Positions 7,878 to 62,939 of a stretch of 64,000 bases of DNA are shown here, piece by piece (positions within the stretch are counted from its first letter, which is position 1; each line of letters starts with the position of its first letter). The DNA lies in NCBI GenBank assembly GCA_950295325.1, contig OX485805.1, forward strand, positions 57,066,758-57,130,757. Direction: 5' to 3'. This DNA comes from Polytrichum commune. Lineage: Eukaryota; Streptophyta; Polytrichopsida; Polytrichales; Polytrichaceae. The notes beneath the pieces are model-generated. The model searched no databases. It had not been told where the DNA came from and was given only the letters and a program-made list of their open reading frames with translations. The translations under genes were made by a program, and so were the position numbers.

Positions 7878-8280
7878 TTTTGGTTTTAATGTAAAAAATC
7901 CGATTTCTGCGAATAAAACTATGGTTTTATTCTAACGCTTGGCACTTGCCATTCGGCACCATCATTGGCGGATGTTGGGCTTTCTGTCCTATAATCTCAA
8001 CTGATTTGTAATAAAACCGAATCAAATTGGATTTTGTTGGACCTCATATGATTGGTTTTTTGAAAAAAAATTGGCATCTGGTTTTTGGTTTTAATGTAAA
8101 AAATCCGATTTCTGCGAATAAAACCATGGTTTTATTCAAACGCTTGGCACTTGACATTCGGCACCATCGTTGGCAGATGTTGGGCTTTATGCTCTATAAT
8201 CTCAACTTATCTGTAATAAAACCGAATCAAATTGGATTTTGTTGGACCTCATATGATTGGTTTTTTATAAAAAAAATATT
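7878..8280. repeat. Two-copy tandem duplication, 205-bp unit
   Basis: Copies start at 7878 and 8083 and are near-identical, sharing for example TTTTGGTTTTAATGTAAAA and TGTTGGACCTCATATGATTG. No coding potential. Confidence 0.85.
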
Positions 8281-13438: not shown

Positions 13439-16400
13439 TAAGTGATAGAAACAACAACCCTTGTTGCTTGACATGTGTTGAATTTATTAGTGTTCTTGAT
13501 GAGCTCTCCCTTTTTCCGCATAAGACATCACACACAAGAGTCACCTCTACATTGCACATGATATTGACCTTTATAGGATAACTCTCTTATGTCACCTCTT
13601 CGAACCGTTTGTATTGAAAACATGCCTTTAGGTGTTATATTATTATCTAATCATGTTAATGGTAGCAACAATAGGCATTCTCAATTTTGTTTGAAATAGT
13701 TGTGTGGATGTTCCAACAAACACCAAAACCAAATGCAACGAACCATCTCTAATACTTATACTGTTTCATATATATGTATATATATAGTTCTAATGTTATC
13801 TCAAGTTCATCTTGTTTAAGACTTATATTCCACTCCAAAATCAATCAAACATAGAAATAAGACTTCTAATTTTAGAGTCTATTCGTCATATCCGATCTTC
13901 TTAATCAAAGTTGAAGATTGTTATAGTATGTCCTTATGCATTAAATTAAACCACATAAATTAACCCTAAATCCATACGTGATTTAGAAAAAAATGCAAAA
14001 CACTCTAAGAGGGTTGTTTGAGTTGGATGTTTTCACGTACCATGGCAAAAGGATTGGGACAAAACAAGTATGACAACTACGGTTGTCACGAGAAGAAAAT
14101 ATATGGACTTGTCAAATTGGGCATTAACTCATCTTAGTTGAGTTCTTCTACATTCATTTCGGACCAACAAACCACAATTACATCTCCACCCAACATACCA
14201 AATTCTACTAACTTCAGATATTAAGGACACAAACAATGATTTGTATGCATGCTAAATATAGTCAACATGAACAGTTCAAACCACCTTCTCAAAACAAAAG
14301 AAAAACTCCATTTCAACCAATTTCATCTAGTTCAACATATTTGAGTGATAAACAATGAATCCATCGAAAAAAATGGGATGGATACAAGTCCGATAGTCCA
14401 AGTGCATGGGTATCGCATTTCCAATTAGTCTTATGAGCATGTTGACATCAAGGGTCGATAATGCCCCTTGGTTCAACATTTTCTCATGGATTTAAGGGGG
14501 TAGGGTCGTGGTAAGTTGACAACCGGAACAAAAGGATATCTCCAAAGTTGTCAAGAATAGAATCCGACTACATATATAGTAGCAATGTTAGAGATTATCA
14601 TGTGTTAAGTTTGATTGGATGCTCGTTGGGGCCCAAGACCGGCGGACTTGGAAACCAATCGCGCTATCAAACGCCCCCCCAAATCAAGGTTTCTTGGGGA
14701 CCATCGTAGATCATGTTGGCCCGAAATCTAGGAACATGTTAGACACTCCTCGTTGAAATCTACGGAGCAAGTAGATACCAAGTGTGGGAGGCGGGGTTAA
14801 GATGACCACCCTTGAAGGAAACATGGGGCCATTTGGGAACAAACCACACCAATCAAGGACTATAGGTTTCACACCACGGGACATGTTGAGGTGGTGGCCC
14901 ATGGGGGTGATGTGGCATCGCCTCCCAAGGGTCAGTGGGTTGTTTCTTAAAATAGAATAGTGAAATAAGGAAGGGTACTTGATGTAAAAGAAAAAAACTT
15001 GGCTAAAAGAAGTTACTAGGAACGGACCAAAGAACATGTATGTATTGTATGGTTGGGTTGGGTTGCCCATGTTTAGATGAAGAAGGTCATGTTTTGCAAC
15101 TTGTAAATGAAATCCATCACGACAAGTGTTTTGAGTAATTTGTGCATTTGTGGGAATGAAGCTAAGACGCGGGCAAGATTGTGAGCAACCCCCTATAACC
15201 AAGTGTTGGGATCCTTCCTTAAGTGAAATATTGTAATAGACCTTGCAAGGGCCTTATTACCAAGTTTTTAGGTTTGTATTAGAGGTGGGCCTCTTAAAGT
15301 GTTAAGTTCATTCATAACAAATTTTTGTATCACATGAAACTATCTTGGGGTGTTCATTTAAGATAAGGTTTGAAAAATCCATCTAGGCTTAATAAATACT
15401 TCTATCCTCATAGTAGTCGAATGTCAATTAGAGTTCATTGAGGGGGATTTAAACATCGTTGGAAGGTCTAACATTACCCTCATGCATATATTTGGATGAG
15501 TTTATGATCCACAACAAATGCCCATCATCGCACGCCTAGTTCAATATATCAATATGGGTGTTTTGGACCCCGACATAAACCCACCGTCAGAGGGCTTTAT
15601 ATAAAACCGGACTTGAAGGGCCCTACCTTGCTGAAACCCTAATGGGACCAATGCATTCCGCCAATGATGATGTCACATGTGCATTCCACGATGACTCAAT
15701 GCATTGCCTAGCAATATAATGCCATGCACCGTAAAAGTGAGAAACTCCATTTTTGAACGCCATCTCATTAACACATGAAGAAACATGCCCGAGTGTTTGA
15801 ACCTCTAAGCATCTACAAGGTCCGAATTGAGTTTCTCCAAGCAAGAACTAGCATATTTGAGGTACATACTTTCATTTTTAGCTAATCATGTTAAAGGTAA
15901 TCCCATTCAAGGCAAACTTATTCCAATTGTGTTATTTGAGTAAGTTAAACACTTCGATGCTATTAACAATTCAAGTTCAAATACGCAACTTGGGTGCCCT
16001 TTTATGCAAATACACATGTTGTATTTTGATCATCAATGCCTTGTTTGAGTATATATATATATATATATAAATAATGTTTTTCTCCTTGACATAATACAAT
16101 ATGTATAGCAAGGTTGCAAACTTATAAACATGTAAAAAATGATTTATGAACTTGGTGAAGCCCATCTAAATTGTGTGTATAGCCATATATGAGGACCCCA
16201 CGTCCTTGGAAAATCACACCATTTCCAACATTGGTGTCCAAATTGGGCTTTATACCAATATTTTGACAAATACACTAAAATACCATGACAATACTTTGAT
16301 AATCGCTCCATATCCACACCCATATGGCATTGAGTTATCTCAAAAAACCACGTATTAATATGGCATCGATAAAAATGATACCAATACAAGTCTAAACTTA

Positions 16401-28041: not shown

Positions 28042-28197
28042 CATAACATTATTCAGATCCATAATACTGTCATGTGGGATTGACAATATTCTATAGAATA
28101 TTCTATGATATTCCCACATCCATGTTGAATGTGGGGAATATTCCATGAAATAATGTCAGTCCCAGAGAACACTATTATGGATCTGAATAATGTTATG
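28042..28197. mobile_element. MITE (family M1), 156 bp
   Basis: CATAACATTATTCAGATCC at the left is the perfect inverted complement of the right end (GGATCTGAATAATGTTATG). Internally it has paired GAATATTC-type motifs. Family partner at 11219-11347. Confidence 0.9.
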
Positions 28198-41266: not shown

Positions 41267-41886
41267 CATAATTTCTCTAAAAATCAATAAGAAGATAGTG
41301 TTACCTACTTATCAACTTTAATTTGGATGTATTATAGAGGTGGAACATTTTCAAATAAATTCTTGTCATGAAAGAAGTTCTAAAACATTGCCATATATAT
41401 TTTATTTTTTGATCAATATAATTTTTTTAAATATCAATACAATGGTCATTTAGGGGGTCAGAACACTATATTAAACATTTCGGGACTTTGGCGTCAATAT
41501 GGGACTTCTGGAGTGTCCATTGAGATCGCATTGGGAACGCATTGGGAACAAATCCTATGTTGTGTAGCAGTGACCCCTAATGGACTCCCAGTTGATTGCA
41601 ACACTACTTTGACCGGTTCAAATGAGTGGGTGAGTGGAGGCTACAGCCTTGTACTCGAAAGAAAAGAATTGGTAACCCATACACCAAGTTTGTAGAACAA
41701 TTACTGTTTGAATTGAGATCTTTATTCCTGAAGCATATGTCGAATGCCTCATTCTTAGGCGTCTACATACATGTTTGGCTATATATATGTCCCCACCGAT
41801 ATGTGGCTAAAGGGGACGCATTATCAACTATAGTATTTAATACATGTTGTGGCTTCTACAGGTCGCTCAATTGTAGTCCTGCCTCG
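41267..41886. other. Spacer beyond the 3' end of the large minus-strand gene
   Basis: AT-rich, with no recognisable feature. It may contain the 3' UTR of the gene ending at 41887. Confidence 0.4.
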
Positions 41887-46500: not shown

Positions 46501-48029
46501 AAGAGGGAAGAGGTGAAAGGGAACGAATTGAGATAGTTCAGATAGGTAGAACTCACCAACGCTGCAGCAACTGGTTTCAAGCCCCCAAATAGATTGAGAA
46601 CCATGCCTCCCGCGGAACCCATGTACTCCAAGAACTTAATATAGATCTCCATTCTGAGCTCCCCTCGATTCACTTCATATGTTAACTCAGACCAATCCTT
46701 GGGTTTTACTTTGTATCGGCGCGAATCCGGGGCTAGCATTGGACATGCAATTACCTTCCACCTGGGAAATTTATCTGGGACAATGAGGTGGTCGATGTAG
46801 AGGGCAGGGGTTTGCCTCTTTCCAACTATTTCTTTGGGGTCGGCTATCTCCTCTGCAGGACAAGGGAAATAGAACGACGGGACGATCACAAACGTGTTGG
46901 GATGTCTGCGCATAAGCGACGACATGAATACGAGCGAGGCATCATGGCTACGCAAGTCGGAGACAATCATCCAAGCTGGAACAGATTTCACCCTTGGTGT
47001 CCATTCCGGAGAGCACAAGTATTTAACCAAGGACTCCACAACTTCAGGAGGGATTGGTTCATCTACACATCCAGGGATGAACCTGAAGTCCAGAAACCCG
47101 CGGCAATGGTGCTTCCCTCAATCCACTCAACATCACTGGAATCTTGTTTGGGAATCACCAATCGTTTCTTAATGGCATTATGTGACACCCACCGCGTGAT
47201 CACTTGCCCTGTGCATTCGTTGAAATTTGTTTGCAGCCAGTCGCGAAGCAATCGGTCTAAAGCCGGTTGTACCGGTAAGGACTTGTTGTTAGTCGCCCTC
47301 TTTCTGTTCAACCACTCTGAAGTCGCAACCTGGTAGAGCTTTACCCATTTCGGCTTTGTAACTCCATGCTCCCGTTTGAATTTTGTCCATATGTCGCGAT
47401 CCAGGAACCCATTCCCCTCATCATCCTTCTTCCACAAGCCAACTTTATTGGGATCCCGCTTATCCAACTCTTGCAACAAGATATTCTTCCACTTGCGGAA
47501 ATTGCACCATGACTTCAGTGTCACGACATTGCTGTTCTTGCAAGGCCTGAGAGTGACACTAGGAACGCCATCCTCTCCCCTCCCTTCTAAAAGCCGTCTC
47601 GCTGCCAGGTGAAAGTCTGGCTTTGTGAGTCCTGACATACTCTTGAATGTCTCCCTTGTAAGGGGTTTAGTCACGAAAGGTTTCTCCACGAAGGGTGTTC
47701 CCTGCCTTGGACTTCTCGTGGCGAGCTCGCAATTTTTGTTGAGCCTCCACATGATCCTCCAGGTCTGTGCGTCCTGGCTTGTCCGGGTTGATAAATAAGC
47801 CCTTCTCGTGCGACATGAACACTTTCTTCCACAATCTTGATGTTTCCTCAGGGGCCATAATTAACGTGAGTTCCGCTTTAAGATCGTTATGCGTGATCCC
47901 TCTTGCGATTGCGGTGAATGATGCCTCCATGCTGGTAGTAAAGTTCTGCACATCATGGATATAGGATACATTGGTTTAGGATACAATGGTTTACAATGTC
48001 TGCATGATCAACACTTTAGGTGCGCCTCA

Positions 48030-48057
48030 CCACTTTCACTCGATCGAGTGAAAGTGG
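48030..48057. repeat. 28-bp perfect palindrome in intron 1 of the large gene
   Basis: Core TTTCACTCGATCGAGTGAAA extended by CCAC/GTGG, and beyond that by a near-complementary CCTCA/TGAGG flank. It lies in the 172-base intron 47946-48117. Confidence 0.95.
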
Positions 48058-48117
48058 TGTGAGGTCATGTCAACACTTGAGAGAGGTCTGATGAATTAAG
48101 GGAGCAGAGTAACATAC

Positions 48118-48642
48118 CTTCCAAGCCAATGTTTTCTCAGGGTCTTGTGTAGCCTCAGAGGCGTTCGCACGCTGCTTTTCGGGTTTGTTCAACTTCACCC
48201 AAACCCTGCGACAATACAGAATTTGTGTAGTCCATGTCGGTGTGAACTTGTTGAACGAGTTCGAATTGTTCAATGTATATGAAAGCCTGACGGTCATGCT
48301 CGGATCCTCTGTCCACACAATTGTGCAGGGCCACACCTTTAACTTCTCCTTGAGCTTCGGATCGGTATCTCGATGAGCAATTATTTCCGTAGATGCGGCT
48401 ACAGTATGTTGCCCATTGATTATGGCGAATTGCATGTTCTTGATGTCATCCCATGTCATGCCTTCCCGCCATGTCTCACCTTTCTTGAACTTCGGCATCA
48501 AACACAGATTGTGCTGAGGCCAAGCAGGCGGGGTTTGGATAAGGTAGTTCTTCATGAGGTTCACCCCACTTGGATCTAAAGGCCGCGTAACTTGATAAGC
48601 TTTTGCGCCCTTCATTTGTTTGATGGGTACACGGAATATCGA
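48118..48642 (-). other. ParB/DGQHR-like segment
   Basis: Codons at 48401-48421 read INGQHTV inside MQFAIINGQHTVAASTEII. This resembles the (D/N)GxHR core of ParB/sulfiredoxin-fold proteins, with the Arg replaced by Thr. A later LSYTLNNSNSFN may match their conserved Asn. Similarity is motif-level only; fold prediction is needed. Confidence 0.4.
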
Positions 48643-49612
48643 TTATGCGCCGAATGGATAAATGTGCCCAAAAAGTTGCAAAAACTTCTTCCTATCCAGA
48701 GCAGCTTCCTCAAGGCTGGGTTGTTGACCTTGCGATATAACTCGACCCTTCTCCGCTTGAGTCAAGACCAGTGGGGTTTCCTCATGCATAACAACGTCGG
48801 GCTTCATTTTCTTTTGCTTTGATTTCTTCTCGGGTGACAAAGCCCTCTTTGCTTTCTTTTTCCTTCCACTCCCGGCATCCCCAGCATCCCTCTCCGTGTT
48901 CTGAGAATCTGTAGAAACGTGGGGCACCACCTCGTGAGGCTTCATTCTCTCCGTCTCCAGTGATGCGGTTAGCTCTTCAGGTTTTTTCCCCTTCTTTGCC
49001 TTCGGCTGTTGTCCAATAGAGCTGCCACCTTCATCGGCCTTGGATTTCAGTATAACCTCGGCTTGCTTCTTCTTTTGCTGCCTTGATTCTTCCCGTGTAG
49101 CTGCCTCTCTACTGTTGATGTCTTCCAGTGTCTCCAACACAAAGTTTATGGCTCTTTTGGATATTCCAGATGACATCACCTTCTCTATCTCTTCCTTCTC
49201 CTTCGAAGGGAATGAGGCCATGGACTCATAAAATGGCACCAAGAGAAATGTATGCTTCTTGCAATCAATTGATAAAATTCTCTCTTCCACCCCCTCCATA
49301 ACCGAAACCTCTAGCCTGTCCCTCGCTCCCACATGAGCGATGGTAATTGGATTTCCAGGGTTCGGAATCCAACTATTGTTTACCTTGTACGTAAATATAA
49401 GCTCGTACCCTGAAGATTTGTTTCTCTTGTTAATGGCCAGCGACCACTTCTGCAAATGAGAGTTTCTAATTACCCATTGAGCAGTTGGTCCTGTTTGTTT
49501 GACTCCAACTATATCTATCCAGAAAACAACTTTGTCCATGCCTCCTGCAATGGTATGTGAAATAAGTTAATCTTCAAACCACATTAATGCATCACTCAAC
49601 TCAACATTAATG

Positions 49613-49634
49613 CTTTCACTCGATCGAGTGAAAG
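49613..49634. repeat. 22-bp palindrome, leader-proximal copy
   Basis: Core palindrome with one extra C/G pair on each side, 74 bases upstream of the ATG at 49539. The flanks beyond are not complementary. Confidence 0.95.
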
Positions 49635-49686
49635 TGAGCCATGGTTGTCCATGGCACAAGCAGGCAGTCAGCACGCGAGCGCTGGT

Positions 49687-49939
49687 CCACTTTCACTCGA
49701 TCGAGTGAAAGTGGCCAGTGGCCAGCCATGGCTCTCAGGCAGCCAGCACGCCAGCGCTGGGCCACTTTCACTCGATCGAGTGAAAGTGGCCAGTGGCCAG
49801 CCATGGCTCTCAGGCAGCCAGCACGCCAGCGCTGGGCCACTTTCACTCGATCGAGTGAAAGTGGCCAGTGGCCAGCCATGGCTCTCAGGCAGCCAGCACG
49901 CCAGCGCTGGGCCACTTTCACTCGATCGAGTGAAAGTGG
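49687..49939. repeat. Tandem array, 75-bp unit, four palindromes
   Basis: 28-bp palindromes (CCAC + core + GTGG) start at 49687, 49762, 49837 and 49912, exactly 75 bases apart. The 47-base linker is nearly invariant and has its own palindromes (CCAGCGCTGG, GCCATGGC). The unit length, divisible by three, leaves all frames open, producing spurious ORFs. The array ends 148 bases before the ATG of the minus-strand gene. Confidence 0.97.
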
Positions 49940-52401
49940 CCCAGCGCCTCCAACCCTGAAGAGTGTCCGTACAGTCAGGTGTGAACGGGGATATTTCCCA
50001 CCACTATATCTTGAAATATACTTCGACTGTAAACTTCTTATTTCTATGTCTTTGACATTCAATGCAAGCCGGGAAGTGTACCTGATGTGTGAAGAATATG
50101 GATGTATATTTGCTACTCAGTCTCTGCTTGCACGACCTTCACTTGGAATCAACAATAAGAGCAGGAGTGGGGATTTTACATAAGTTCTGATTACTGTAGA
50201 AACCAATACCATGTCTTGCTACATGGATCAAGATGGAGGTTATTTAATATTGTGTACAGGAATATGGCTAATCTGAATGCTTATGCTGCAAGGATTCAGG
50301 GGCCTGGATTGAAAAAGAAAAACCAGAATGTGATTAGGTTCCAGTTGTAAATACCTCAAAAAGTGAGCATATCGAAGGAAAATTCAAGATGCCGATTGCA
50401 CTGAACAAATTTAGGATGCTGGGGGTGAAGATTTCAATGAAGCATAGCAAACAAACAATGTGGAACACGAAAATTGACTTAATACACTTGGAGGCTCCAG
50501 GTGCATACTCTTTAGAAATCAAGAGTATCAGGGTGAACATCCCGAATCCATGGAGATGGAACAAACAAAAGAAGATTTCTTAATAAGAATTCAGGGTGCC
50601 TAATGTATAGAAAAACGTCAAGCAAAATGCATTCAATGAAATAAACATAACCAGGATGCTCTTTGTGATATACTGAGTGGATCCCAGGTGTGGATGGCAC
50701 TTCAGGAGGGTGGAGGAATGTGCGAAAAGGGAGATATGATGCAGATTGTGAATTGAAAAAAGGAAGATGCAGATTGTTGAGCAATGTGCATACTAGAGGC
50801 AGAGCTCAACCACATTGGAGTGAACCAGGTGCATACTACAAGATATCAACCAGATTGGAGTGAACCAGGTGCATACTACAAGATATCAACCAGATTTCAA
50901 TGAAACAAGGTGCATACTAGAAGAGATCAACCGGATGGCAGTGAAGCAAGGTGCAAGGTGCATACTAGATCAGCAATTTCAATGAAGCAAGGAGCATAGA
51001 CGAAGGCAAATGCATAATACACTTGGAGCCGGGTGCGGAGAGGGAGAGGGTGCACAATGTTGCAACGGAAGAACCAAGAGGAGAAAACACTAGGATCGAA
51101 GAGGAGAAAACACAATGAAAGTGTTGAGCGGGGGAGGTCATTCTGGACCCAAGATTGGGAACGGCCACGTCCCTTCGCCCAAGTGCCGATGGTCAGGATT
51201 GTGCCGTCAATAATGGACGGCCCAGATCCTAGACGCCGGACCATGATGGGCGGACGAGTAGGCTAGGGTGTAGTTTCACCCGTTCTCATTAAGGAGGGTG
51301 TGGGTTAGTAGGAAGGGTACTTCCTACTAACTGTAGAGGGTATTGATTGCAAACTGTATGATGTTAGTTGGTGCTTTCACTTATGATTCACTTAACTTAC
51401 CAAATGAGCTTTCGTCCAAATGGCTTGATTCCATCACAATGGTTCAATTTAGATATGATACGGCCACCGCCACCGCTTGGCTGGTACATAAACCGAAACC
51501 CCTATATTTGAATGGTATGGGGTTCAGTGAGGATCAAAGAGCAAACATCAAGAAGACACGTTTAAAAGAGTGTACTATGTATTGAAACGTTGATAATCTC
51601 TACTCTCAAAAACGATTCAGTTGAATGGACCTATATATATGCAGCTCAAAAATTATACATATACACATACATATTCATATACATATACATATATATTTCA
51701 CCACATGTAAGAAGGTACTACACCGTTTATGATGTTTAGTGTCAAGTGCACAATTTGCGAAGGGCCTAAACTAGATGCCGGCGGGGTCTCAAAGTGTCAA
51801 GGCTAGCCTACTAATTGCCCATATGATACAATTCATCAACATAAGTAACATGTTTAAGCAAAAATATTAATTAAAAAATCTACATTATGACAGTGAGAGT
51901 AGCACATTGGAATACTTTGGACGACAATTTAGCGCTCCCTTGTAGTCCAAATATTTCTTTTCTGAGCAATTTTGTCTTGAAATCATCATCAAAACCTTGA
52001 GTTTAATTTCCGAGTGAAAAATAAGGTGGGGTGATCAAACCTAAAAAGTTTAATTTGTTTACTGGGCCCTGCATTCAATAAGTATTGTTACATTGTTTAT
52101 GGTGTTTAGTGTCAGGGAATAAATTTGAAGGGTTGCTTGTATTTCATAAGGAAGGGTAACTTAAAATTTTCCCTTTCAAAATGAAGGGTTAGCTCAAAAA
52201 TTGCCCTTCATGTATGTATTGAAATTTTTGTTCAAAGTGCACATTATCATGTTTATCATTTAAGCGATGTTCAATACTATTATAATATAAGTGAGACCAA
52301 ACTTAAAGAACACACATGGTGAAAAGATAGAATAATAATTTCAATAATGAAACATTGATGTTTGAGTATATTGAAACGGTACTGACATTTCAACATATTG
52401 G
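49940..52401. other. Spacer with short tandem repeats
   Basis: At 50814-50950 a roughly 40-base unit containing GAACCAGGTGCATACTAC and GATATCAACCAGA repeats two to four times with decay; related phrases recur from 50390. (TA/CA)n-rich sequence lies at 51655-51695. No gene seen. Confidence 0.5.
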
Positions 52402-54173
52402 TACAGTCTAACCTTGATAATATCACAGCATCCGTTTCACCATAAAGTGTGATATAAGCATTGAAGGTGTCATATTTGATAATGTCACATTCTGAAGATT
52501 TGTGCATAATGTGATATTATCAAAAAAAATAGGTAGACAATCAAAATAAAATTTCAATGTAAAAAAAGAAAATAACAAATACAAGACTTCAATGTTTTTA
52601 CATGTAAACTCTAATTCAAAATTGTGAATAACAGCAAGAGCACATCATAATCTGTCATTGAGACCAGGTAAAGACCTCTCACTAGAGACAAAGGAGCTTC
52701 TAATGTCACATTGTTTTAGTGATGTTTATTGTCCAACACCAATTCTAATGAGTTTGTTATGGATTTTTTCCATTCCTAACAACTCCTGGGTGTTGAAAAT
52801 CTGAAAACCTTGGCTAACCATAAAATTCAAAACATCTTTAGCATATTTTTGTGCATGATCGCTTAGCTATACTACTTTAGACTCGTCATCACAGTGACTG
52901 CTATCAACAATCAATGGGTCTTCTTCCATGGAATCACTAGCTTCCAATGTAGCAACAACAACAAAAACAACAACACAACGAATAACACCTGCACTGCAAA
53001 CCAATTGAACTAATTTAGCTTAAGTCGACACTTACTCTGTACCTAGACCAGCTCACCTAACCGTAGAACTTAACTAACATCCCAAATTACTTCACACAAG
53101 CCGAAACCCTCATAGACACATATTAGGTGAACACATGTGACGGAAGGTGGGATGCATATTAGAGGCCGAGAAGTCTTGCAGACCTTGGACAACTAACCAA
53201 CTAATTCAACTATCAGTTAACTAGTTGCCTTTCGTAACTATAGTTGTTTGTGATTTGACCTGCCAAAAAATGTAGTTAACTATAGTTATATCTAGTTAAC
53301 TAAAGTTGGGCACAACCTGTAGTGTAGTACCATGACAGATCATAGCATCTATATATTTTCCTTCTCTTTTATTCAAAATTTAAATTTGGGACTTGATTCC
53401 AGTTGTGATCCGCACTCAATCAACACCCAATGAGCATCATGATGATGACTTCATTATGTCTAAGTTACTTAGAGTATAATGGGTTCTAGTCCTTCTTGGG
53501 ATGGGCCTTCATGGGTGACAAACATAAGGTCTATTATAGAAGTTATGTAATATACGTTAATTCAAAAATGAAATAACTTGTTGGTTGACTCCTTACATTT
53601 TTTGGAACTCTCAAGTTGTAGTTGGTTGAATTTTTTTCTAGTTAACTATAGTTGTTTTTTAATATGGTCTTAAATATTTCTAGTTAACTATAGTTGTTCT
53701 TCAAATTGGTTTGAAAATTTCCTAGTTAACTATAGTTGTTTTCTAATGTCTTGAAAAAACTCTAGTTAACTCTAGTTATTTTGGCAGTTGTTTAAGGTCT
53801 GAAGTCTTGACAGTGCCGTCCCATACAACACCTTTGAGTGCCGTGTATAGACAACACCGTTCAAAGTTGGTGCACATGGGCGGCTCATGACCATGTGAAT
53901 AGCATTGCATTATCACAGGGGGCGGCTCATGACCCTTTTGGCTATTACAATCTGTCCATCCAACCATCACATACAATCCATCCATAATTGATATTATAAC
54001 GTTCACACTACGGATTTTGGAGTATTTTGGAGTATTTTGGATGTATTTTGGATTTTGGATAGTGGCATTGTCTAGGATGATAGGGATAATAACAAGGGAG
54101 TTTTACACTAAGAAAATCGGTTTCAAACTTTAAGGTGTTCTATTACCAAGGGTGACATTATCAAGGTTAATAG
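52402..54173 (-). mobile_element. pogo/Tigger-like DNA transposon remnant
   Basis: Left end CTAACCTTGATAATATCAC (from about 52409) is the inverted match of the right end at 54152-54173 (GTGACATTATCAAGG). Inside, minus-strand sequence at about 52690-53000 reads, with stops, as the C-terminal tail of a Tigger/CENPB-like transposase: GMEKIHNKLIRIGV followed by TSLKQCDIRSSF, like the rkQttItsFF tail. The catalytic part is missing. The spacer filling it carries many TAGTTAACTATAG motifs. Confidence 0.55.
53209..53781. repeat. Clustered TAGTTAACTATAGTT motifs
   Basis: Copies or near-copies at about 53209, 53271, 53292, 53639, 53682, 53721 and 53762, often followed by GTT and a T-run. Each has the palindrome AGTTAACT at its core. 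Confidence 0.8.
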
Positions 54174-55075
54174 AATGTATCAATGATAATCTCGAGGACA
54201 ACAAGAAAGCAGTAGTAGAAAGATGTAAGAAATTCACAATCTAAATCACTCTTGAAATCTTCTATCCTTCACGGACATTTATAGAGGGACCGGTGGCCTG
54301 TAGTAGGATCTTTAAATATATCTAGATTTCCCCTAAATTTAAGTTAAGGTACATATTATACCTATAACCGATAACTTAAGAATTTCAGCATAGCATATCT
54401 TCGGTTATCAAGAAGGAGTTAATTTTTCTGCGTAGGAAAATAATGTCCATGATGAATGTCGAGCTTTTTTTCAAAATTGATTAAGTAAAGTTAGAATTAC
54501 TACAAATTTTGCAAACATGAAAGTTGGTTAGAGTCCATAACCAACATATAGCTTCACCCATGACCGACAACAACTATTTCGACAACTTCCCCTCCACGAA
54601 GTCATATGGTCCTCACGTTTATAATATAAAAACATCGACTTCTGCTAATTTAAGCCATGCGCGTTCATGCATAGGTCTACTTGTCGGTGATGGGTGCGTT
54701 ATCGGTTATGGGTGTCTATACCTTAGGCCTACGCGACGGTGTAAGGATGTCGTGTGTTCATTGTACTACGCATAAGTTAACTTGGGTTGAACTTCTTTAT
54801 TGCAAGGTGGTAAACTTTAAGGTTGTCTGTTGGTTATAATAACATAACAGATGTTATGTTATTGTTGTGTTGATTATAACATATGGTGAAAGTGGGTGTC
54901 GCAAGGGTTAGCCCTCCATCCGATATTAATATTGTGCACTTTCATAAGCCTACTAGTAGGCAATCTGCTAGCAAGTATTCGAGACCTTCTACCACTAAAT
55001 AATAGTGGCAACTACAACGCCACTAACTACACTAAGTGGTGAATAGTGGTGCGCAATAAACAATCCTCTCAGAAC
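54174..55075. other. Spacer without recognisable genes
   Basis: No family-like frame. A small inverted pair ATAACATAACA/TGTTATGTTAT lies at about 54838-54865. Confidence 0.45.
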
Positions 55076-55228
55076 CTAGTTAACTATAGTGGTGCTTGAT
55101 CACTAACCTATTAATGATTAGTTAACTATAGTGGTGCATGATTGTTGACCTTTAAGGTTTAGTTGATGATGATATTATTTGTGCATGATCATTGACCTAT
55201 TAATGATTAGTTAACTATAGTGGTGCAT
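55076..55228. repeat. Degenerate tandem repeat with TAGTTAACTATAGTGGTGC
   Basis: Copies start near 55076, 55119 and 55207, sharing TAGTTAACTATAGTGGTGC and CCTATTAATGAT. The core is the same AGTTAACT motif as at 53.2-53.8 kb. Confidence 0.8.
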
Positions 55229-57547
55229 ATATGTCCCAACCCACTCTAGTGATATTTAGTGTTAGATACACAAAATACGAACGCATACACTAAATATTAG
55301 TAACCCTAGATGAAAGTAAGTAACATTCATTGTGAACTCAAACACTAAACTTGGACTATGGTAAGTCACATGCCCAAATTTAGTGTTAGTAAGGATGTGA
55401 AAAATTCTTAACAAAGATAAGAGAAGGTGCATGGTCGTAGGGAGGGTGGTGGCGCATTTATGTCTAACACTAGTTATACGACTAGTGTCATACCAAATGT
55501 GTAAACTTCTTATGGGTATAATAATTATGCTTTGACAAGTTTACTCTCATCCATCAACATGTGGAACACTTGACTCCCCAATGCATAGGTTTGTGGCCTT
55601 CGTCACGATGATATGATTCATTCAACGTCGGCTAGATATTAAACTCATTGTCTAGGGGTAACGTTTAGAACTTGGGGTTCAGGCATAGAGTTTTAGTTTT
55701 TAGAGTGCATGTTTAGGATGGAGGGTTGAGGCTTGTAGGTTGAATTGTAAGCATATTTATGCCAATATGTTTGAAATGTCACTATGTTACTTGACCCAAG
55801 ATTGATCACTAGTTTAAATGGTGAAAGGTTAGTGACCATAACGTTACCCCATTTTTCAAAACACCACATTGGAGCTTCAAATGACCGTTCCATTCGTAAT
55901 GGCCACCCTTGCATTTTGCACATAACTGAGCTCATTGGATTTCAAAGGCAGATTGGAGCCCACTAAATAACTTAACCCATAAACCCCAAACCCTAAACCC
56001 TAAACCCTAAAAAGTTCACAATTATTGCGCACTGGAGTGGGAGTGACAACACAACAATCAGTGACAACTTCAAATGTTTGACAATGTATGCCATATTTGC
56101 CAACCACCATTATATTAATTTCATGTAGTTTTCCAATCTAGTGCACGCCATATACTACTAGGCAGTTGTGTTGTCCAAAATTAATGCATAATCCAAATAT
56201 ACTCAAATCCCTGTTTCCATCAATTGAGGTAGCTCTTGGTTTGCTCTAACTCTAACTTAAGTTTGGATTCAATTTGTCTCTTAGACTAGTAGCTCAAATA
56301 AATGCCAATGAATCTACCTACACCAATATTGGCAATTAGGTAGTCTTGCACTAATCTATTGGCATGTCACATTACTTGATTATTTATTACCAGTACAACA
56401 AAATACACAAATTTTGTATGGACTTTAATTGTGATAGGAATGAACCAAAAAACTTAATATAAGGTTTTTGATCCGAGTTTGACCTATGGAAAGTTGCTTG
56501 CGTAAAGAGGCGATGTAAGAGGCAACACAACTTTACCCATTTGCGAAGGCAACCTAATTACACGTACTAAGGTTATGAGTGTGGATGGAAGGAAAGTGGA
56601 GAGGTCATAAAGGGGAGATCCAATGGGTGAACTCCCAATTACGAACAATATAGGCACTTTCAACAATTGACTCCGACCATTGCAAGAGCAACTGCTTGGG
56701 CGTGAACTTTTGAAGACATGATGTGAAGATATGTGACACGTGGCATGCTCACAGGAATTTGCGGGAATGGCCAGTGTTGTAACTGCTTCCTACAGGGTCC
56801 AAGCCATGCATTTATTTGGATGCATTATTGCCACGAAGACACTTGGACACATGGTGATTAAGGTTTGAGGGCCTTATGTTCGCGCTTCTTAATTAAACAC
56901 CTATATTTGTCACTAACGCAGATCAATTGTCCAAGAGTTGTATGCTTGTAATACGTGCAGTTATGAGGGAACACTAAATGAACACGTGTTAGGATGAGAT
57001 TAACTTACGACGTGCTCAAATGTAGACAACGCTTTAAATTGACTAGTTTGATCAGCTGATTCAAATCATTTTAGAGTTCTTAGACTATGACTTAGCTATT
57101 GGACCTAACAAAATAATGTAAAAAGTGTGACCAATGGTGGAAGCAACCGATTCAGACATAGCACTTAATATGAATATCAAATATATTTGGGATTGGTTTT
57201 GTATCATGGTAGCCCATTCATTATTTGCTTCAAATGCAAACCAAAGTGGTACTTCGAGTATAGGGTTTAGGGTTTAGGGTTTAGGGTTTAAGTAGGCTGA
57301 TGGGCCTCCAGAGGCTACTCAATCTTCACTAATATTAACCCACATGCACTTTTCACCTTTCATTTAGGGTATTGGACTAATTGTTAAATAGGGTAGAAGG
57401 GTCTAGGGTCAATTCGAGACGGCATCCTCAGATGAAGTTGGAGGCGCAAATTTCAAATTCTTCCAATTTAATTTATGAATTGTTGAACCCCATAAGCCCA
57501 ATGGGGTTACTATAATGGGGTTAATAAGCCCCTTCCTAATTTGCTTC
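55229..57547. other. Spacer with two interstitial telomere-like repeats
   Basis: (CCCTAAA)3 lies at 55988-56013 and (TTTAGGG)4 at 57261-57292, in opposite orientation and 1.25 kb apart. No genes recognised between or around them. Confidence 0.6.
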
Positions 57548-57763
57548 TATTGGGAAGTTACTAACCTCTGTTGGGAAGTTACTAATCTCTATTGGGAAGT
57601 TACTAACCTCTATTGGGAAGTTACTAACCTCTATTGGGAAGTTACTAATCTCTATTGGGAAGTTACTAACCTCTATTGGGAAGTTATTAATCTCTATTGG
57701 GAAGTTACTAGTAACCTCTATTGGGAAGTTGGGAAGTTACTAACCTCTATTGGGAAGTTATTA
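57548..57763. repeat. Minisatellite, 21-bp unit
   Basis: About ten copies of CTATTGGGAAGTTACTAAC with C/T variation, one partial duplication near 57724. The unit is a multiple of three, so the overlapping 107-codon frame is an artefact. Confidence 0.95.
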
Positions 57764-58540
57764 AGACATTATGTCAATGTTGAGAGATGTGCAAAGCACA
57801 TTGTAATTGGAAATTGGACCCACCCACATAATAATTAATTTTGGATTAATATTGAAATAGTTAATATGAATTTCGGAAGGAGAACTCATCGGGGTGCCAT
57901 AAACCACTCCGATAGCATTGGGAGCATGGCAATTTATCTGCAATACTACAAGCATACATAGATACGTTGGGATGAGGGCCGATGATTTAATTGTAATTGT
58001 TATGACATGTTGGGGACATCCATTTCTTTTCAAGAGATTCAAGGTCTAGGGGTGCAAATATCTTCAACCTTGAAGCCGGTGCACAAATGTAGGTTGCAAC
58101 GACAATGAGCGCTTGTGAGTACCTCAACGTTGTACGCGCCTCAATAGCAGGGTGTGATGCCACAAGTGCGATGGAAGTGGTGGGCTGAGGGTACCTGTTG
58201 ATAGGACCACATTCTGGCGTGTTTTCATCTCATCAATCAAACTTGGATCCAAAGGCGTACCAGCGGGTAGTACGCGCTCATAGTAGTGATGCCCAAGAGT
58301 GGGCGATGTGCTAACTATCATTACAGGATTGGGGGTGGACCGGATTGGCTTAAACACATCATGCCGAAAATAATGCAAAACAATCCCACTAACACAATTG
58401 TATCAAGGTGCATGTAAAAACCCACCCAAAGGCATCAAAAGCCGTCCGCATACGGATCTGTGACGGCCTAAAACGAAAGGGAGGGAACCTTCAAAATTGG
58501 ATTAGGGCACTATTCTCCCACCAATTCTGCTACACCCGAC
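57764..58540. other. Spacer upstream of the DUF7869-type gene
   Basis: An 84-codon minus-strand frame at 58124-58378 (LPAGTPLDPSLIDEM) looks mildly protein-like but matches nothing I know. No other feature. Confidence 0.4.
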
Positions 58541-58547
58541 TATATAA
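58541..58547 (+). promoter_or_regulatory. TATA box of the DUF7869-type gene
   Basis: TATATAA, followed by GCCTGGAAGGAGC, 275 bases before the first palindrome and 939 before the ATG at 59480. This implies that the palindromes downstream are transcribed in the 5' leader. Confidence 0.5.
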
Positions 58548-58815
58548 GCCTGGAAGGAGCACACTCGAACCCTCTTTTGTCGCCCTTTGTGCCAGGGAGC
58601 ACAACACCACAACATTCTTCTTTCTATCCCTTCCAGGGATCAATTTCACACAAGGTTCGGTCCTACACAACAAGAAACACCTGATCAAAGAGGCGCTGTT
58701 CAATGTGCCGTTCCATATGCATGGAGCATTGCAGCGGCACCATATTTGCGGGGCCCTGTACCCATCCCTGCAGTCCGTACAGTACGGCCCGAACAACCGG
58801 CGCTGGGAGGCCCAA

Positions 58816-58964
58816 CACTTTCACTCGATCGAGTGAAAGTGGTGGGCCTGCAATCGACTCGCCAGCCCACTTTCACTCGATCGAGTGAAAGTTTTGTGGC
58901 GCGGCGCTGGCAGGCCCACCACTTTCACTCGATCGAGTGAAAGTGGGCTGGCGAGTCGATTGCA
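58816..58964. repeat. Three palindromes in a nested inverted repeat
   Basis: Core palindromes at 58816-58841, 58869-58892 and 58919-58946. The segment 58850-58892 (GCAATCGACTCGCCAGCCCA plus a core) is also the inverted copy of 58921-58964, so alternative hairpins can form at two scales. Located in the leader of the gene starting at 59480. Confidence 0.93.
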
Positions 58965-59163
58965 TGGGGATGAACATGTGATTGTTTGGGGATGAGGATG
59001 TGATTAGTTTATGGGGAGAGGATGTGATTGTTTGGTGATCGACGTTTTTATTATCGACACAAATAATATGTATAGAGGGAGGTAGGTGTTAATCGGGTGG
59101 GATAGATTGGGTAACATCTATTTATGACCGGATTTTCTGAGAAAAGAAAAGGCATGAAGGGCC

Positions 59164-59257
59164 CAATATGTCGTGTATGTGGCGCGGGCATGCATCCCAC
59201 TTTCACTCGATCGAGTGAAAGTGGGATGCATGCCCGCGCCACATACACGACATATTG
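59164..59257. repeat. Perfect 94-bp palindrome
   Basis: Two 47-base arms with no mismatch and no spacer, centred at 59210/59211 on the shared core TTTCACTCGATCGAGTGAAA. The outer arm sequence (GGCGCGGGCATGCATCCCAC) is unlike the flanks of the other copies. It ends 222 bases before the ATG of the plus-strand gene. Confidence 0.97.
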
Positions 59258-59479: not shown

Positions 59480-61797
59480 ATGGATGCGGAATCTACCACA
59501 GAGGTGGTTTTCTAAACTAAGATGTTTCACATTGTTTGTTGGAATATGTTTTACTAATGAAGTGTTTGTGCAGGGGTCATCCCTTTCCGACGCAATATTC
59601 TCGGAAGATGAAACTGTTCCGGTTGAAGATATTGACCCGAATTGCAGTGGACTTCGTAGGGATGATTGGGTGAACAAGCCTGTTATGCTTGTGAATGAAC
59701 ATGGACACAATATGGCAAAAGGAATTTGCCGTAATGTAAACCCAATTGACTGCGTGGAAGACAAATGTTTGGGACCTGATCACGTTGGTGTACTAATAAT
59801 GGAGCCTATTCATGGCATGATGGACATGGGGGCCATGTTTGCTTTGAGGGCGTGGCCAATCTCTCGTGTTTTCCACGGTGGTTGCACTCTGGCACATCAT
59901 CTCCTTGTTAGTGGCCACAGATTACGGGCACAAACCAAGTCGCTGGAGAAGCGAAGGAAGGACGGGAAGAGAGCGTATGAAACATCCAGGATACCAGAGC
60001 GTCGTAAGCCAACGAAAAAATCCCAAATACTAACCAATGCAAGCATACAACAACTATCTGCAGTTTTGTGTTGTGATCGCGAGTGCCTTAGATTCTTTCC
60101 TAGAGATGAGGCTCTCGCTCTTCGAACTGAATTTTATGATTGCTCCACAAGGATGAGGCATGCAAAACGTCTTGAGGTCCACGGACAAGTACATCCACTT
60201 CCGGGGGGGCATACGAATGTGGTAACACTTAGTGGACGTGATATTTGCCTAATCGCATGGAGGCACATATTTGTGATTTCAAAAACCGCGTTCTACAGAA
60301 ATCGACAAGAGTTCAATTGTGGGGTGCGACCACGAGACCATGGGAACTTGAACACCAAACGGTATCGTGTGTCCACTCAGCAAGCCACTGCCACTCTTTC
60401 CAACCTCTTAGAGGACAAAGCGGACATGATGCCTCATAAATCCCGCACTTTGCCTAATGGTACTCGAGTAGTGGAGATGGTCTTGCCTCGCGGCACAAAA
60501 TGGAAGAAATTTTTAGTTACAATCAACCAGGTTAGTAGGCTCCCGATGTTCCACTTAGTCCATTTTCAATGTGTTGTTAGTGATTGCCTCAATCCAGGTG
60601 TTCTCATTTCTGTGGCTGTCTAAATGTTGTATGTGGTATGATATTCAGGTGAATGACAAATGTGGGTTGCAACCAATCTCTCTTTCGACTCTGAGCCAAA
60701 TAAGACAGAATTATTTTAAGCACTACGTGACAAAAAGAGCAGGGGACAATTTTGCTCGCTGTGGGAAATGCGATTCACTTATGGCTATTATTCTTCAACA
60801 TGTTAAAGGTTCTGCCGCACACACCGGGTTTTCCAAGCAGTTGGAGAAGCACCAGGCACAGCAAGAATCCGCTCGTAATGCTTACCGTTGTATGAGAGCG
60901 TTGTCCATTGAGCATCCGCGCAAGGTTTTGACCATCATTCACGACAAAATGGACCATGGCAAAACTGCATCTCCATGCTTTGCTAACAAGAACAAAGACA
61001 CTGATATGTTCACGAAACTACCACTTTCCGTGACAGGCATGATGGCTCATGGCCATGGAGATGAGAGATATGCTCATTATGCATTGGATTTGTATCCTGG
61101 TGATTGCAACCATACTGTGGGCTCATTTGCGAGGCTTCTTCGCGATTTGGAACAGCCCCCGGCTTCATCATCTCGCATGTTATTCCATGGTGCGGGTCGG
61201 TCACCGCTTTATCGTGCTGTTCTTCATGGGAGTGATGTATGTTTGTCAGGATTACGACCTCCACCTAGTGAGCCTATTCCAGCTGTCTCGCTTCCACCCG
61301 TTTTGCATGTTCAACTCGATAATTGTTGGAAGGACAACAAGTGTAGATATGTGAAGGCATTTTGGTCCATGCTCACGGCCAAAGGTATATTCACAGAGGT
61401 CCACGTGTCTTACCTTTTAGTTGGTCATACACATGACGACATTGACGCTTCATTTGGTAGATGGAGTATGGACTTGCGTGAACATGATTACCCCACTATC
61501 CCCTTGCTCATGAAATCATACATGGACATGGAGAAGGTCCCTATCATCCCACATATGATAGAGGAGCTTCCAGATTGGAGGGCTTTTGTTAGTGAGTACA
61601 TTCCTGATGGCCAAGACAAACTCATTGGCCATACGAAAGCCCAACAATTCAAATTTGTTGTACGGGATGATGGTTGGCCCGTCATGCATTACAAGGTGCT
61701 TAGTACGCATGATGAATGGTTGCCCAAGGATGGCATATTGATGTGGAAATCCAACATAAAGGGGGAGCCAGTTTTCCCACCTGGGGAACCTTTGTGA
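59480..61797 (+). CDS. DUF7869-type transposase-like protein, 3'-truncated by an LTR
   Basis: Probable RNase H-fold transposase of the DUF7869 type. Exons 59480-59503, 59574-60530, 60649-61797 join in frame (709 residues). Family-like features: a Cys-rich entry CCDRECLRFFPRDEAL, CLIAWRHIFVISKTAFYRN, KCGKCDSL, then IIHDKMDHG, VQLDNCWKDNKCRYVKAFWS and LLVGHTHDDIDASFGR, the Asp/His residues expected at the active site. The tiny first exon (MDAESTTE) has a weak donor; a start at 59484 read without that splice is the alternative. The last codon TTG and the stop TGA are partly LTR sequence (LTR begins 61793), so the true C-terminus is lost. The leader has four palindromes shared with the large minus-strand gene. 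It may keep its catalytic core but is probably impaired. Confidence 0.75.
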
Positions 61798-61990: not shown

Positions 61991-62939
61991 AAGGAGAACT
62001 TGGATTGAGTAGTTAGTGAGTAGGCTAGTACAAATGGATGGAGACAACCAAAGTGACTCAAGAGGCAAGTGCATTCGAATTGGGATGAATGGAGGATCAC
62101 ATGGAGCGCACAAGTGGACCACCTCATCATGGCCACTTAATGGGGAAGGCCCAAGGAAGAATGCAAGGTGGAGGATAAGCAAATTCTCAAAGCACCAATC
62201 AAATCACGAGTTAAACATCGTGGTTTGAATTAAGTGGTGAGCGACGATTTGGAAAAGTAAGGGGAGAAAGTTATGGCGGCGGAAAGCGAAGGAGGCTAAG
62301 TTTGGGTTGAAGCATCCCAAGTTTGGTAAAGTGTGGTAGGTAGAAAGCCAAGGCTAGTTAAATGTTCGAATTAGGATCCTTGTTGATCATTTGAGGGAGG
62401 AAGGCTTAGAAGATAGGATTGGCGCCTACTAAGTAGGAGGAAATCTCAAGGGCTTATCGTGAATTAGAAGGAGAACTTGGATTGAGTAGTTAGTAAGTAG
62501 GCTAGTACAAATGGATGGAGACAACCAAAGTGACTCAAGAGGCAAGTGCATTCGAATTGGGATGAATGGAGGATCACATGGAGCGCACAAGTGGACCACC
62601 TCATCATGGCCACTTAATGGGGAAGGCCCAAGGAAGAATGCAAGGTGGAGGATAAGCAAATTCTCAAAGCACCAATCAAATCACGAGTTAAGCATCGTGG
62701 TTTGAATTAAGTGGTGAGCGACGATTTGGAAAAGTAAGGGGAGAAAGTTATGGCGGCGGAAAGCGAAGGAGGCTAAGTTTGGGTTGAAGCATCCCAAGTT
62801 TGGTAAAGTGTGGTAGGTAGAAAGCCAAGGCTAGTTAAATGTTCGAATTAGGATCCTTGTTGATCATTTGAGGGAGGAAGGCTTAGAAGATAGGATTGGC
62901 GCCTACTAAGTAGGAGGAAATCTCAAGGGCTTATCGTGA
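61991..62939 (+). repeat. 477-bp tandem duplication inside the LTR
   Basis: The segment beginning AAGGAGAACTTGGATTGAGT at 61991 restarts at 62468 and runs to the phrase GGGCTTATCGTGA. The two copies are almost identical, and the solo LTR has only one copy. Confidence 0.95.

Follow-up and report, generated by a model that had tools for sequence, protein, structure and literature searches.

Family-specific palindromic sites at fixed places in large DUF7869 transposons of Polytrichum commune, predicted targets of an element-encoded regulator

A 64,000-nt stretch of the Polytrichum commune genome (contig OX485805.1, positions 57,066,758 to 57,130,757; hereafter the window) carries a large DNA transposon with terminal inverted repeats (TIRs), and all ten copies of a 20-bp palindrome found in the window lie inside this single mobile element. 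The element encodes two divergent genes, one for a protein with a DUF7869 domain and the other for a protein with a DGQH motif, and the palindromes are located in the leader and in intron 1 of the DGQH-motif gene, and upstream of the DUF7869 gene. Related families of the element carry different palindromes at these same places. The palindromes are predicted to be bound by a regulator that evolves fast, that the element itself encodes and that controls both of its genes, a reading that we consider reasonably probable. An earlier note on this DNA, made from the sequence alone, had taken the two genes to be otherwise unrelated; they are the divergent genes of one element.

The palindrome, TTTCACTCGATCGAGTGAAA, occurs in 10 exact copies in the window, no copy with 1-3 mismatches was detected there, and none is expected by chance (0 in 100 shuffles), so that the claim of ten invariant copies with none elsewhere in the 64 kb was confirmed. 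As also claimed, nine of them are in the leaders of the two genes. Five precede the minus-strand ATG at 49539 of the DGQH-motif gene, one at 49614-49633 and four in an array with a unit of ~75 bp (49691-49710, 49766-49785, 49841-49860 and 49916-49935), and four precede the plus-strand ATG at 59480 of the DUF7869 gene, three with a spacing of 52 bp (58819-58838, 58871-58890 and 58923-58942) and one, at 59201-59220, that forms the centre of a 94-bp perfect palindrome (59164-59257). The sites themselves were correctly placed in the earlier note, but their starts were given 1-4 bases too low because flanking paired bases had been counted in. The tenth palindrome (48034-48053) is inside intron 1 of the minus-strand DGQH-motif gene (47946-48117, with GT at 48117 and the AG ending at 47946), and therefore it is also part of this gene. 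The limits of this intron (GTATGT...CAG) were set by eye, and families A-F all have it in this position. In the rest of the window, outside the element, perfect palindromes of 18 bp or longer are confined to position 8116 (22 bp), a run of TA (16050-16069) and an AT-rich sequence at 28085 (18 bp).

The sites are built as inverted repeats of a 9-10-bp half-site that ends in CG, with a 2-bp spacer between the halves. Among seven families (A, which includes the window copy, A′, B, C, D, E and F) six types of half-site were found: TTTCACTCG in families A and A′; TTCCACTCG in the DGQH-motif leader and ATCCACTCG upstream of DUF7869 in family B; TTCCTCTCG in C; GTTTGGGTCG in D; TTTACGAACG in E; and TTTACGGACG in F. 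The places shared between the families are the DGQH-motif leader, intron 1 of the same gene and the region upstream of DUF7869. Intron 1 contains at least one site in each of six families (one copy each, A-F), and this place is kept although the DGQH-motif proteins of D-F are only 21-23% identical to that of A (identities over the aligned open reading frames, ORFs, are 56% between A and C and 21% between A and D). Upstream of DUF7869, arrays of ten sites in family E (L093) and of six in family F (L094) were observed when up to 2 half-site mismatches were accepted, and in one family D copy two sites lie ~2.1-2.3 kb before the DUF7869 match. In two further pieces, L023 and L024, perfect core palindromes are lacking, but 10 and 11 sites, respectively, are present at up to 4 mismatches. 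That the sites are small palindromic insertions was considered and rejected, since they are at conserved places, have a family-specific sequence and share minisatellite units.

The link between sites and genes was then followed through the genome. There are 236 exact TTTCACTCGATCGAGTGAAA sites (0 for the reversed control), of which 219 were placed in copies of family A and its close relative A′ (209 in A/A′ element pieces, and 10 beside the A′ matches C2:23276338 and C2:23286536) and 17 were not located. The two genes recur as divergent pairs in many copies, with at least 150 DGQH-motif matches (all scored, of 864 candidates) and at least 135 DUF7869 matches (from 101 scored of 2010 candidates); both counts are lower bounds. 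When the first 50 listed sites of each pattern were compared with the matches of A-C type (63 of 150 for the DGQH motif, 67 of 135 for DUF7869), 50/50 family A, 50/50 family C and 33/50 family B sites were within 4 kb of a match, as were 55 of 20,000 random positions. Hence, the copies are not scattered at random, but cluster at the two gene types, and the suggestion of shared binding sites of one mobile family is well supported at the level of sequence: the predicted sites accompany these two genes in copy after copy and, in the form of other sequences, in six further families. Exact whole sites of the other types are also numerous, with 146 for C, 109 for B (as an 18-mer) and 1591 for D (reversed controls, 0); the D sites were matched to genes in the copies read, which hold a minority of the 1591. 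Some arrays of the family D core have a 78-bp spacing, e.g., G000:C1:616401-617280.

The structure of the sites favours their being read as double-stranded DNA rather than as an RNA hairpin. An exact half-site was followed by its mirror half (with up to 3 mismatches) in 339/342 cases in A, 110/110 in A′, 34/36 in B, 109/111 in C, 31/32 in D, 158/158 in E and 21/21 in F, the strands being counted separately and family B by a 7-bp half. The spacer is free in E, varies in C and D and to a small extent in B and F, and is fixed in A. The sole feature common to all the families is the CG that flanks the spacer on either side; in family E, 55 of the 89 mismatches fall at the two outermost positions. 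In the window, complementarity reaches 1-37 bp past the half-sites (9 distinct sites), as the earlier note had recognized in describing flanks that differ but stay complementary. This does not extend to a general property: past the half-sites 5.9-6.9 of 10 pairs are complementary in A, A′, B, C and F (where array units are not independent), but only 2.54 in D and 2.89 in E, with 2.5 expected by chance. Long arms are therefore not generally required, and selection on pairing beyond the half-sites was rejected as a general rule. Furthermore, among the mismatched pairs G.T (30; 17+3+7+3) and A.C (32; 19+2+6+5) are equally frequent, the others amounting to 68, so nothing indicates that RNA pairing is selected. 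For these counts and for the flank complementarity, sites with identical surroundings were taken once. The half-site structure, the free spacer, the unpaired flanks in D and E and the lack of a wobble bias point to DNA recognition by a dimer, and they leave unsupported, as a general rule, the proposal that selection acts on pairing as such or that control is exerted by an RNA/DNA hairpin.

The same data bear on the strongest of the alternatives, according to which RNA hairpins would act in the transcripts, in the 5′ leader and in intron 1, either as sites at which an element protein influences splicing or translation or as sources of small RNAs. The position of the intron sites is consistent with it, the nearest one being ~0-145 nt past the 5′ splice site in A-F and overlapping it in E, and so are the very long perfect palindromes, which are centred exactly on the family core in A (94 bp, arms of 47 bp), B (108 bp, arms of 54 bp; L006+L007, local 14602-14709) and C (70 bp, arms of 35 bp; L008, 1989-2058). 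However, the absence of a G.U bias among mismatched pairs, pairing that in D, and for the most part in E, does not go beyond the half-sites, and sites on the DUF7869 side that are far from the coding frame (in E they lie ~0.4-1.5 kb away from where the matched ORF starts) make this alternative unlikely.

A second alternative is that the DUF7869 transposase itself binds the palindromes as internal sites, by which it would regulate itself or be titrated. It is common for DNA transposases to bind motifs that are repeated within their element, and palindromes are indeed present upstream of the DUF7869 gene. When the termini of the families were compared with those of A, they were identical at 27/28 positions in B, 24/28 in C and 20-21/28 in D-F, although the sites differ. 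The termini of A, B and C are thus little changed while their palindromes change, and the sites do not follow the ends, where the transposase should act. In addition, the terminal 1 kb of element A has hardly any half-sites with up to 1 mismatch (1 at the left end and 0 at the right, against 46 in the whole copy), and in the C1 copy the exact sites are at least 6.8 kb from one end and ~4.2 kb or more from the other. The stable termini and the near absence of half-sites from the ends of A argue against the transposase as the reader of the sites, and this alternative is improbable. The stable termini together with a quickly changing DGQH-motif protein, whose own gene has sites at two places, argue for that protein.

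The data establish the element, the build of its sites, their replacement between families at conserved places and their link to the two genes; from this we infer that a protein binds the sites, that it is probably this one, and that the binding would affect transcription or silencing. A homodimeric, sequence-specific regulator encoded by the transposon would bind the dyads as double-stranded DNA, and the most likely candidate is the DGQH-motif protein, which evolves fast and has sites in the leader and the first intron of its own gene. Occupation of the arrays, those within its own gene as well as those ahead of the DUF7869 transposase gene, would give the regulator joint control of both genes. 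The effect would most probably be to keep both genes expressed or unsilenced, autorepression being the alternative sign, and as site and protein diverge together each family would act mainly on itself.

The closest analogue in the way of working would be the anti-silencing by VANC proteins of VANDAL elements in Arabidopsis. According to PMC5735166 and PMC10398659, VANC proteins bind family-specific short motifs and remove silencing, and the former describes these motifs, which differ between families and change with the protein, as tandem repeats in non-coding parts, within VANC21 and VANB21 introns and also upstream of VANA21. The likeness resides in a family-specific motif that is repeated in an intron of the (here presumed) regulator gene and upstream of the transposase gene; the VANC motifs are of 8-9 bp and in one orientation, whereas here 20-22-bp dyads with a spacer are found. 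The layout is strikingly similar, but the elements, the proteins and the site symmetry differ, and therefore the element is not called a member of that group. It also differs from Mutator-like elements in its DUF7869 protein and in its 4-bp target duplication, that of Mutator-like elements being longer. A second system to be compared is TnpA of the CACTA element Spm/En, a protein of the element itself, which binds motifs present in repeats and controls the promoter of the element. The TnpA motifs are subterminal, whereas the palindromes described here are internal and the ends carry another repeat (GTTCCCA).

Several observations weigh against the regulator proposed here. The DGQH-motif protein shows no recognised DNA-binding domain in Pfam, NCBIfam and PDB profiles, nor any significant family or PDB match (the best were YEATS, E = 0.021, in one of seven proteins, and AgrC, E = 0.029, in the PDB). 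Sites are missing upstream of DUF7869 in the A′ piece L053, in the C piece L072 and, even with 5 mismatches accepted, in the D copy C3:36942435, apart from those beside its DGQH-motif gene, and degenerate sites are common in A′ and E. In E and D the intron site overlaps or adjoins the 5′ splice site, a position that would fit an RNA role as well. The 17 of the 50 listed B sites that lie beyond 4 kb of the matches used (11 in three C1 clusters, 3 on C2, and 3 on C3 just more than 4 kb from a DUF7869 match) are another such point. Finally, the core gave no clear sign of selection. Family A is too young to give an answer, with no difference in either the 1120 core cells or the 1036 long-arm cells, and 14 in 8979 others. 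In family C one core has a pairwise difference of 0.012, against a median of 0.047 for control windows, but 28 of 479 control windows of 20 bp are as conserved; two other core positions gave 0.033 and 0.305, the latter value, from a variable region of the alignment, being higher than in most windows. CpG decay in the family C core (2/30 cells) was not lower than outside it (19/429). In these C counts L072, which is without the site region, was left out and gapped cells were skipped. The argument for a regulator rests on the turnover of the sites at fixed places, not on these selection tests.

The lack of a clearly slower change in the core would be expected if the sites were non-regulatory and had spread as minisatellites or as copied hairpins, by unequal exchange or fold-back synthesis. 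Also in line with such a passive spread are the variable length of the leader array (3 sites in L012, 5 in the window and 15 in the C1 copy), the extended palindromes of 94, 108 and 70 bp, which resemble a copied hairpin end, and the deletions between adjacent family C cores in L070 and L071, which restore one intact site. It would leave unexplained why unrelated leaders and intron 1 have one sequence per family and change together, and why the positions are conserved between proteins of 21-23% identity, so that we regard this explanation as improbable too.

A true ParB-parS-like system, in which the DGQH-motif protein would load as a clamp on the palindromes and spread, is very improbable, because the motif that we take to be ParB-like, the palindromes that adjoin the gene and a weak AIPR match of the window ORF (E = 0.089) are opposed by the lack of any ParB family at E up to 1 among seven diverse proteins in Pfam and NCBIfam, or in the PDB searched with their profile, and the single-sequence AlphaFold model is unusable (mean predicted local distance difference test score of 31.8, and 36.6 for the other window ORF). 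The likeness to bacterial ParB-parS is limited to palindromic sites that adjoin the gene of a DGQH-motif protein, and the halves of the sites are here separated by further bases; the half-site TTTCAC resembles parS, which we presume to be a coincidence, the whole site differing from parS in sequence. The name ParB-like, given to this gene in the earlier note, is thus a label of convenience by motif only, with no Pfam, NCBIfam or PDB profile behind it.

The regulator proposed here could form part of a wider scheme, which we put forward as a tentative possibility. These elements may represent a second, independently evolved lock-and-key system of transposon self-activation outside Mutator, in which giant DUF7869 elements with a 4-bp target duplication would encode a DGQH-motif protein that recognises a CG-centred dyad, this protein being possibly a eukaryotic relative of ParB-type clamps turned into an anti-silencing factor, and in which the site type would have changed at least five times (six types) with its positions fixed. 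The six site types, with the proteins of their elements, provide within one genome a natural series for the study of how a regulator and its target change together without loss of function. Should the effect prove to be anti-silencing, systems of this kind would have arisen at least twice. The palindromes are also a clean marker for the annotation of these large elements, and no description of the element or of its palindromic sites was found among the open-licence papers listed.

The element is a TIR DNA transposon of the cut-and-paste type. The window copy (plus strand) begins at 41462 and continues past the window end (64000) to its right terminus at C3:57139720, ~31.5 kb in total; the left TIR is an exact 28-mer (41462-41489, plus strand) with its inverted partner at C3:57139693-57139720, and both termini were located by a pattern search with this terminal 28-mer. 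The region 41462-61792 is 98-99% identical to a second genomic copy, with an abrupt left edge exactly at 41462. Family A copies have exact inverted termini of 28 bp that are 22-31 kb apart, and a perfect 4-bp target duplication was present in all 10 copies, the window copy included, that were examined at both ends. This duplication is TCAG on both sides of the window copy, CATA in the C1 copy and TAAT in one family D copy. The termini (AACACTATATT...) and the 4-bp duplication differ from those of CACTA/Spm elements, which have CACTA termini and a 3-bp duplication. Sola-type and some other DNA transposons share with this element the TIRs and the 4-bp target duplication. A subterminal repeat unlike the palindromes was observed in the C1 copy (TGGGAAC, 3/5 in the first 100 bp; GTTCCCA, 12/12 in the last 340 bp).

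The DUF7869 gene (59480-61797, plus strand, with the limits of its 5′ exon set by eye) matches the Pfam profile PF25273 in the window with E = 7.2e-41 and 140.3 bits, the curated cut-off being 26, and a family D protein gave 142 bits. Its product is the putative transposase, so assigned by elimination and by its conservation. The frame of 704 residues is open in all 13 other family A copies, two of which have one stop inside the match. In the window copy the gene is cut from 61793 onwards, probably by a nested insertion of several kb. The length of this copy (~31.5 kb, with ~22-26 kb for full family A copies elsewhere) fits such an insertion. Direct repeats of 300 bp with 99% identity (61991-62290 and 62468-62767) were found in the stretch after 61793.

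Exon 1 of the DGQH-motif gene (48118-49539, minus strand) has an in-frame stop at 48643-48645 in the window copy; of the other family A copies, 13 in number, 10 have it open over 499-508 residues with no stop inside the match. This large first exon ends in a domain with an invariant GQH in 7/7 aligned proteins. FCP1-like genes had also been mentioned in the earlier note; none was among the window ORFs scanned, but an ORF for an NLI/FCP1-like phosphatase (PF03031, E = 1.6e-13; L011:4741-5583) was found in a family D copy, downstream of its DGQH-motif gene. Between the two genes the window element also contains an inverted pair of telomere-like repeats (CCCTAAA; 55970-56010 and 57253-57293), and a minisatellite with a 21-bp period is found within the element at 57525-57764.

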